Assembly (NCBI GenBank): GCA_002688135.1 | Contig: NZCD01000069.1 | Coordinates: 1-45,604, forward strand | Source: Parcubacteria group bacterium | GTDB lineage: Bacteria; Patescibacteriota; Patescibacteriia; Magasanikbacterales; GCA-002688135 | DNA: 45,604 bases | Reading direction: 5' to 3' | Shown here: positions 25,143 through 26,763 of the stretch, one piece after another | Numbering within the stretch: position 1 is the first letter of the stretch | Layout of the letters: each line of letters starts with the position of its first letter | The notes under the pieces: model-generated | The model's database searches: none | What the model was told of the DNA's origin: nothing | What the model saw: the letters and a program-made list of their open reading frames with translations, nothing else | Translations under genes and position numbers: made by a program

Positions 25143-25502
25143 ATGGGCCAATCGGGTCCGTGGAAGAGGCGTCATACTGGTTTGAATGAGCTGAATCAGC
25201 GATCGGATGAATTTCGTCATCGTTCTGATTCTGCTTTAATTTCATTACATCAAAGATGTGATACTCGTTTGGGACGCATGAAAACGCGTTTGAAATTGGT
25301 ATTGATTATTTTGCTGTTAGGTGTGATTGGTTCTGTTTCCTTATTTCGTGTTGTGACATGGCTGGCATATATTTTTGTTGGCGTGTCTGTTATTGCGGGG
25401 TTTGTGGGTTTGCATGCAATTCACATTAAGGAAAAATGCTTCACAATGTTGGCCGTGATTTCTGTTGAATTGAAGGCGAGAGGCGTGAATCATCGGTTGT
25501 AG
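25143..25502 (+). CDS. Small two-TM protein of unknown function (1 of 3)
   Basis: SD AGGAGGG; TM segments LKLVLIILLLGVIGSV and VVTWLAYIFVGVSVIAGFVGL. Confidence 0.7.
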   Translation: MGQSGPWKRRHTGLNELNQRSDEFRHRSDSALISLHQRCDTRLGRMKTRLKLVLIILLLGVIGSVSLFRVVTWLAYIFVGVSVIAGFVGLHAIHIKEKCFTMLAVISVELKARGVNHRL

Positions 25503-25556
25503 TTGACTTTTCACGAGTGCTTCAGTACATTGTGCCCAGGTCTTTACAGGAGGGCA

Positions 25557-25942
25557 TGATGAAGAGGTCTGACTTTGAATCTGAACATGCATTTATGCAT
25601 GCTCGGTCGTTGCGCATTCATGATATGGCTCGGAAGTGCATTTCTGCGGTTAGTGAAAGAGAGCAGCTTGAATATAATCGCTTGAATTTGTCGCGATATA
25701 TGTGGGCTGTGTGGTCGCTTGCTAGTTGGATTTTATTGGGTTTGTTTGCGAGACGTGCGTATATGTCTGATTTGGCGTATCATTCTTCGCTGGTCAGCGT
25801 GCTTAGTGGGTGTTTGCTTGTCGTGCTAATTCTTTTTGTGAAATCACGTCTTTATGCGAATCGAGTTTTTGAACTTAATGATATAATTCGGCCTCTTGCG
25901 GATTCTGCTGATGCTATATCGAAGACCTTCGAAGTGAAATAG
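25557..25942 (+). CDS. Small two-TM protein of unknown function (2 of 3)
   Basis: SD AGGAGGG before ATGATG at 25557; TM MWAVWSLASWILLGLFA and LVSVLSGCLLVVLILFV. Confidence 0.7.
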
Positions 25943-25945
25943 TGC

Positions 25946-26191
25946 ATGATGCAGCTTGTGTTTGGCGCGGGGATGGTGAGTGCATTGATTGGGCTATGTG
26001 GAATCGTTGGTGTGTTGTTTTTTGTGGCTCGCGTACGGTATCTGCAGTCGCATCAATCTCAGGATGATGCTAAGATTGCACAATGGGACATGTATGCATT
26101 GCAAGGAATTCTTTCTGAGTTTGCTGCAAGTTTGTTTGCTCTTCTGTTGGGTGTAGTCTTGATTGTTGTTTCGCATTTGTTTGGCGGGTAA
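25946..26191 (+). CDS. Small two-TM protein of unknown function (3 of 3)
   Basis: Starts 4 bp after the previous stop; TM MVSALIGLCGIVGVLFFVA and FAASLFALLLGVVLIVV. Confidence 0.65.
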   Translation: MMQLVFGAGMVSALIGLCGIVGVLFFVARVRYLQSHQSQDDAKIAQWDMYALQGILSEFAASLFALLLGVVLIVVSHLFGG

Positions 26192-26250
26192 GTCCCGTCT
26201 TTTTTATACTTGATTTTTGTGAGTGATTTCTATATGATACATCTCGCTGT

Positions 26251-26421
26251 GGCCAGGTAGCCAAGTGGTAATGAAGGGGCCTTCAACCCTCTTAGTTGCT
26301 CAACTTACAATACTGGCAAGCTGCACCTGTTTTCACTCGTCGTTTGATCGACGTACTACAACGTACGCCTCACTGCACGACTCGTTCCAAACAGGCACAT
26401 CTTATCCAGTCTTGAAAGTTG
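26251..26421 (+). ncRNA. tRNA-Cys 5'-half-like segment fused to a 121-nt structured RNA, unit 1
   Basis: GGCCAGGTAGCCAAGTGGTAA (identical to tRNA-Cys 5' end) then hairpin 26301..26421. Strand inferred from tRNA orientation. Confidence 0.65.
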
Positions 26422-26446
26422 CTCGCGTCCGTGGAAATTAAAATGT

Positions 26447-26624
26447 GGCCAGGTAGCCAAGTGGTAAGGCAGGGGCCCACTTCACCCTCTATTCTCTATT
26501 GCTCAACATCCGATACTGGCAAGCTGCACCTATCTTCACTCGTCACTTATTCGACGTACGGAAATGTACGTCTCATTGCGTGACTCCCTCCAGATAGGCA
26601 CATCTTATCCAGTCTCGAATGTCG
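26447..26624 (+). ncRNA. tRNA-Cys 5'-half-like segment fused to a 121-nt structured RNA, unit 2
   Basis: GGCCAGGTAGCCAAGTGGTAAGGCAGGGGCC then hairpin 26504..26624, aligned without gaps to unit 1 with compensatory changes. Confidence 0.65.
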
Positions 26625-26658
26625 CCGATGTTCGTGGTCTATTGGAAATAAACACTTG

Positions 26659-26730
26659 GGCCAGGTAGCCAAGTGGTAAGGCAGGGGCCTGCAAAGCCTC
26701 TATTCGTGGGTTCGATCCCCGCTCTGGCCT
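26659..26730 (+). tRNA. tRNA-Cys (anticodon GCA)
   Basis: GGCCAGG/TCTGGCC acceptor, loop CTGCAAA, T arm GTGGGTTCGATCCCCGC, discriminator U; no encoded CCA. Confidence 0.95.
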
Positions 26731-26733
26731 TAT

Positions 26734-26763
26734 AAAATCCATCACGTATGTGGTGGTTTTTAT
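26734..26763 (+). terminator. Terminator after tRNA-Cys
   Basis: AAAATCCATCACGTATGTGGTGGTTTTT. Confidence 0.7.

Follow-up and report, generated by a model that had tools for sequence, protein, structure and literature searches.

REP-like, probably mobile hairpin repeats at tRNA ends and gene boundaries in Patescibacteria

REP elements are extragenic palindromes of 20-40 nt that are dispersed in many copies per genome, lie near gene 3′ ends and carry a GTAG/CGTC foot. An enzyme acting in trans recognises their folded single DNA strand and moves it (PMC8266576, PMC3733652); the transposase TnpA_REP (RAYT) binds one folded ssDNA strand only, via conserved stem irregularities (PMC8266576). MITEs are likewise short, non-coding, dispersed inverted repeats, with sharp ends. 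Integron attC sites are long imperfect palindromes, active as one folded DNA strand. TIGR stem-loop arrays (TasA) are tandem hairpins with variable palindromes and occur in the bacterial group treated here (PMC12045711).

We describe a hairpin repeat of ~122 nt, with full hairpins mostly of 119-135 nt, first seen in a 45,604-nt contig of a Parcubacteria group bacterium (NZCD01000069.1; ‘the window’ in what follows is this whole stretch). It shares with REP elements the dispersed, non-coding, strand-asymmetric extragenic palindrome, the conserved stem irregularities and the many copies per genome. It differs from them in length, in having a conserved apex with varying and covarying arms instead of the foot, in not requiring a RAYT, and in the polarised way in which it docks at either end of tRNA genes. 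It is unlike MITEs in that ends and arms are unconserved between copies while the apex is conserved, and in lacking a consistent target-site duplication. We take it, with a probability of roughly 0.6, to be a new REP-like and probably mobile hairpin that acts as folded ssDNA and is moved in trans.

The starting point was an earlier note, made from the window sequence alone, which described a tRNA-Cys-linked array. Its account of the layout holds. The 21-mer GGCCAGGTAGCCAAGTGGTAA has exact matches at 26251, 26447 and 26659, with no fourth site in the 1.05 Mb genome when up to three mismatches are allowed, and only the third copy continues into a full tRNA, called as tRNA-Cys (GCA) at 26658/26659-26730/1. 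Between 26301-26421 and 26504-26624, of 121 nt each, the alignment is gap-free with an offset of 203; over an extended alignment of 139 nt the units are 79% identical. Folding reproduced the claimed helices of both units, and the compensating changes between the two hairpins are real. Both upstream tRNA 5′ halves are indeed truncated, but unit 1 is not tRNA-like past the repeat: its D stem is also gone (GCC...TGA), so that no tRNA likeness extends beyond the repeat. Unit 1 was also considered as a UCA-anticodon (opal) tRNA and ruled out, the tRNA body being absent and the D stem lost. The features are collected in Table 1.

Table 1. Features of the window array and the intact tRNA-Cys gene
Feature	Position	Strand	Basis and remarks
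Predicted sigma-70-like promoter TTGATT-17-TATGAT, for array and tRNA-Cys	26210..26238	+	Consensus scan; directly precedes first unit
Truncated tRNA-Cys 5′ part 1	26251..26294	+	21 nt identical to tRNA-Cys; D stem and anticodon loop altered; 3′ half absent; no tRNA call by ARAGORN or Rfam
Hairpin element copy 1, 121 nt	26301..26421; core 26310-26412	folded strand minus	Folding, model match
Truncated tRNA-Cys 5′ part 2	26447..26494	+	31 nt identical to tRNA-Cys, then CTCTATTC
Hairpin element copy 2, 121 nt	26504..26624; core 26513-26615	folded strand minus	Folding, model match
Intact tRNA-Cys (GCA)	26659..26730	+	tRNA calling
Intrinsic-terminator-like stem and T run, 3′ of tRNA-Cys	26739..26761	+	Terminator scan

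Since a promoter-like site precedes unit 1 and a terminator-like site follows tRNA-Cys, array and tRNA-Cys are probably transcribed together from the plus strand. Three small ORFs lie upstream of the array (25143-26191), at least two of them hydrophobic and none with a Pfam match.

The hairpin is a dispersed non-coding repeat family, separate from the tRNA halves. A covariance model built from the two window units found three further copies at unrelated places in the same genome (E 1e-19 to 1e-23), one adjoining trmD, one in the gap between recG and tRNA-Ser, and one in front of a membrane-protein gene (trmD and the membrane protein as read from translations), and one copy in another family of the order. 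A second model, of eight sequences, added a sixth copy to the window genome and gave matches in 69 of 381 class genomes and, at detectable level, in 39 of 380 phylum genomes. Forty named genomes from other lineages were searched as well: a Saccharibacteria MAG was the single positive; the other 39, one Peregrinibacteria MAG included, had no match. The apex pattern GAGNCGTAC(3-8)GTACGNCGANTRA occurs in 4 of the 381 class genomes, its reversed form in none, and the apical pattern had no match in viral contigs. Scans of genome and viral collections with exact 16-mer patterns gave matches that looked like chance; beyond supplying control genomes they were set aside. The richest genome cited here, G387, holds at least 63 copies in 777 kb, one per ~12 kb, and plain BLAST from one of its loci returned 41 other matches.

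Homologs thus lie dispersed outside the contig, and they do not always adjoin tRNA genes, a point that the earlier note had left to be checked. The tRNA association that it described is real by the docking counts given below, though the majority of loci have no adjoining tRNA, and an array specific to tRNA-Cys is not what the family shows. As the note had said, no named RNA family applies: in a search of Rfam 15 the hairpin had no match at gathering score, and on the window and ten loci of other genomes Rfam placed only tRNA, lysM-TM7 and others, all off the hairpin. The lysM-TM7 RNA is itself present in a repeat-positive genome, which together with the positive Saccharibacteria MAG suggests that the carriers are Patescibacteria. 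A group I intron match below threshold lies near tRNA genes at locus L282 (209-313, genome G131), and 3′ of the hairpin at L260 (601-702, minus strand) there is a tRNA-Thr-like gene with an apparent extra GC-rich palindrome in the D region.

When folded, one strand of the repeat forms a long rod whose irregularities are fixed. It has a 1x1 mismatch, internal loops and, in most subfamilies, a bulged A beside a conserved U-G pair. At its apex lies a tandem G.A motif (YGAG/CGAR), which NCGTAC...GTACGN closes; near-invariant positions are these G.A opposites (G44 and A46 with G71 and A72) and the CGTA/TACG stem. The arms vary freely in sequence and keep their complementarity. Among 73 distinct copies 88.7% of the paired cells can pair, against 62.8% when shuffled and 29-42% when slid, and 35 of 37 pairs show double changes; the copies were found by a structure model that favours paired sequences, so that these counts lean towards structure, but the slid controls and the copies found by BLAST argue against circularity. 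The covariation score was 0.648 (0.194 shuffled) for these copies, 0.699 (0.185) for an independent set of 43 and 0.461 (0.139) for copies of a single genome, with slid controls at 0.06-0.14. Selection on the folded structure, proposed earlier from the two window units, is therefore borne out in wider alignments, where covariation is very strong (0.65-0.70 against 0.19 shuffled).

The structure also tells the strands apart. In the two window units the strand complementary to the tRNA, the minus strand, folds with an MFE of -57.6 and -60.4 (z -5.5 and -7.4), the tRNA-sense strand more weakly with -37.8 and -41.7 (z -2.8 and -3.4). On the folded strand of the 73 copies G.T opposites number 224 against 78 A.C; fixed positions hold the excess, for example the U-G pair beside the bulged A, the remaining columns pooled being even (79 vs 76) and most A.C cells lying where the middle of the rod aligns poorly. 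Because of the advantage in MFE and z and of this asymmetry, selection most likely acts on the fold of the window minus strand, which is opposite the tRNA transcript.

Two of the first readings fall with this. A fusion RNA of tRNA half and hairpin is rejected: at all other examined loci the hairpin stands without tRNA halves, it stands alone at many of them, and its folded strand is opposite the tRNA-Cys transcript. A tRNA sponge or mimic is unsupported, the hairpin being a separate dispersed element. Mobility, also among those readings, gained support. A broader RNA reading, likewise one of the first options, a trans-acting structured or guide RNA (TIGR/box C-D-like, or a tRNA sponge), would suit the very strong covariation, G-U pairs included, and the presence of TIGR arrays in these bacteria, which share with the window the tandem hairpins of variable palindromes. 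We consider it improbable. Box C and D motifs occur together in 1/73, 0/43 and 1/63 copies, the arms are paired and thus not free spacers, copies are mostly single and dispersed, the flanking ORFs hold no recurrent Pfam family, the flanks of closely related copies are unrelated and hence carry no attached promoter, and the folded strand is mostly antisense to the adjoining genes (46:22 and 43:25).

The ends of the repeat are sharp. Ten closely related copies in genome G033 share AGGACTTACG...CGTAAGTCCT or a close variant, between unrelated flanks. No target-site duplication was consistent across copies; the 31- and 24-nt repeats in the window are the tRNA halves, and a search for direct repeats between both flanks turned up the duplicated tRNA halves at no copies other than the two in the window. 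Nor does a constant partner gene appear: 132 flanking ORFs fell into 163 Pfam families, none found more than twice and mostly housekeeping, and PADLOC found nothing recurrent on the loci. Two paralogous ORFs with the common start KKMRTPGD lie beside one hairpin copy (L186 2-1192, genome G307).

Presence of the element varies between congeneric genomes. At an orthologous site in three genomes of one genus it is present in G387 and G327, with a short stem in G250; this remnant means that loss fits as well as gain. In the orthologous pair G125/G211 the 5′ half of an old hairpin precedes a new hairpin that is complete, and at L234 a complete copy is preceded by a hairpin 3′ half. At the orthologous sites L225/L232 and L224/L233 the hairpin is retained with different arms.

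Position relative to genes is strongly polarised. Among 116 copies a tRNA lies beyond the 3′ end of the folded strand in 21, 12-28 nt past the core, and beyond the 5′ end in three, at 27-43 nt. In G387 18 of 63 copies are docked on a tRNA at 10-21 nt (p ~2e-10 against ~4.5% expected by our own estimate); counted by unique gene, 16 of its 44 tRNAs, about a third, are docked. We also scored docking at any boundary, defined as a tRNA end, stop codon or start codon within 28 nt. The 3′ side was docked 69 times and the 5′ side 23 times in 112 copies (p 5e-10), and 42 against 21 times in the 63 copies of G387 (p 3e-4); for the pooled 175 copies the figures are 111 and 44, with gene ends taken from simple ORF calls and copies of related genomes not fully independent. 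For tRNAs alone the pooled ratio is 39 to 3. By kind of boundary it is 27:1 at tRNA 5′ ends, 12:2 at tRNA 3′ ends and 57:22 at stop codons, a niche near gene 3′ ends that REP elements share; start codons show no polarity (15:19). A structured 3′ flank at non-tRNA copies was a weak signal (p 0.045). Replication-strand bias is not claimed: all five copies in the skewed half of G357 lie on the same strand, and clear bias is absent in G387. At L376 (13356-14056, G387) four hairpins in alternating orientation, ~200 nt apart, surround tRNA-Ala and tRNA-Arg, in the manner of a BIME mosaic.

Docking of such regularity, with sites that keep their hairpin while its arms change, makes a functional boundary or processing structure at gene ends the main rival: the hairpin would serve to direct RNA processing, to keep 3′ ends stable or to stop read-through, with its multiplication as a secondary effect. 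Besides the docking at both tRNA ends and at stop codons, this rival can point to two tRNAs of G387 flanked on both sides by hairpins that point at the tRNA, to a tRNA-Leu(TAG) that has a docked hairpin in three genomes from the same family (L202, L205, L297), and to the persistence at L225/L232 and L224/L233. We nevertheless rate it as rather unlikely. The transcript would carry the weaker fold in the tRNA 3′ and stop-codon cases and the other one in the tRNA 5′ cases, but the G-U asymmetry fixes one strand. A constant neighbour gene is absent, and detection in just 39 of 380 phylum genomes makes the hairpin dispensable for tRNA maturation in general. Compared with an intrinsic terminator, the repeat lacks the stem plus T run: terminators were called at neither window hairpin, and flanks of the copies have no common T run.

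The fixed one-strand irregularities, complementary arms, sharp ends, high copy number, presence/absence variation and gene-end niche match instead the logic of REP elements, and we prefer the reading as a mobile hairpin. A folded single DNA strand would be recognised strand-specifically by a putative recombinase or transposase acting in trans, and insertion would leave its 3′ side flush with tRNA ends or stop codons. Whether it is a REP/RAYT system proper, with the Y1 transposases that many of these genomes carry as its mobilisers, is a narrower question. Y1 proteins were found in 192 of the 381 class genomes, and both the ssDNA hairpin logic and the genomic niche agree with REPs (PMC8266576, PMC3733652). 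The hairpin is three times REP length and the foot motif is not enriched (in 137 copies, 5′ side, near vs far: GTAG 9 vs 5, CGTC 9 vs 8; no clear enrichment on the 3′ side), so that by definition it is not a REP. Y1 was found in 41 of 69 positive and 151 of 312 other class genomes, a weak association (odds ratio 1.56, p 0.11); 28 of the positive genomes have no Y1, the high-copy G033, G202, G348 and G425 among them, single absences being soft in draft genomes. The RAYT of the window genome has its own, different palindrome. Mobilisation by Y1 is accordingly hard to credit, and the search for a mobiliser found none. At L191 of that genome (C62, 1225-1945), the Y1/RAYT ORF is flanked by this palindrome (CGACACTCGATGTCGA...) and adjoins tRNA-like sequence, a separate REP-like system.

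Integron attC sites share the long imperfect palindrome and the single folded strand, but here a gene-cassette arrangement is absent and copies are scattered singly; the R box GTTRRRY was found in 0/73, 0/43 and 0/63 copies when the 20 nt at the 3′ end of the core were scanned, and the outermost ~10 nt of the stem were searched by eye. Tentatively, the repeat may represent a mobile DNA class of its own, a ~122-nt folded strand inserted with fixed polarity at tRNA gene ends and gene boundaries by a novel single-strand recombinase, its arms rewritten from copy to copy and its recognition features fixed.

The window array is the usual docking on the tRNA 3′ side, except that both redundant tRNA copies have no 3′ halves: in both hairpins the end that faces the truncated tRNA-Cys halves is the folded strand's 3′ end. 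In related genomes of the order tRNA-Cys shows the same D and anticodon arms, and no second 5′ half accompanies it. In the simplest history, tandem tRNA-Cys copies with docked hairpins would have been eroded from the hairpin side in all except the last, leaving units of tRNA 5′ half plus hairpin upstream of a single intact gene. Exact identity of the halves over 21 nt despite ~20% hairpin divergence would need recent exchange between the halves, and later exchange between the 21-31 nt repeats may have contributed; a search for an intermediate stage found none. Assembly is known to have trouble with tRNA arrays and palindromes, and an artefact, or a plain tandem duplication of the tRNA with hairpins arising by chance, could be imagined. 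This is very improbable: the units are mid-contig and ~20% divergent, and for the hairpin itself the artefact reading is already refuted by homologs in dozens of independent genomes.

Our literature searches, beyond whose reach most subscription journals lay, found no description of this repeat for these bacteria. The family is a previously unlisted extragenic palindromic repeat, and it is a realistic possibility that its mobility mechanism is new. Patescibacteria have very small genomes from which few mobile elements or noncoding RNAs have been described, and the repeat probably ranks among the most abundant noncoding features of these genomes. A mobile repeat would imply a new single-strand DNA recombinase that targets sites close to tRNAs; a functional one would be a new kind of gene-boundary structure.
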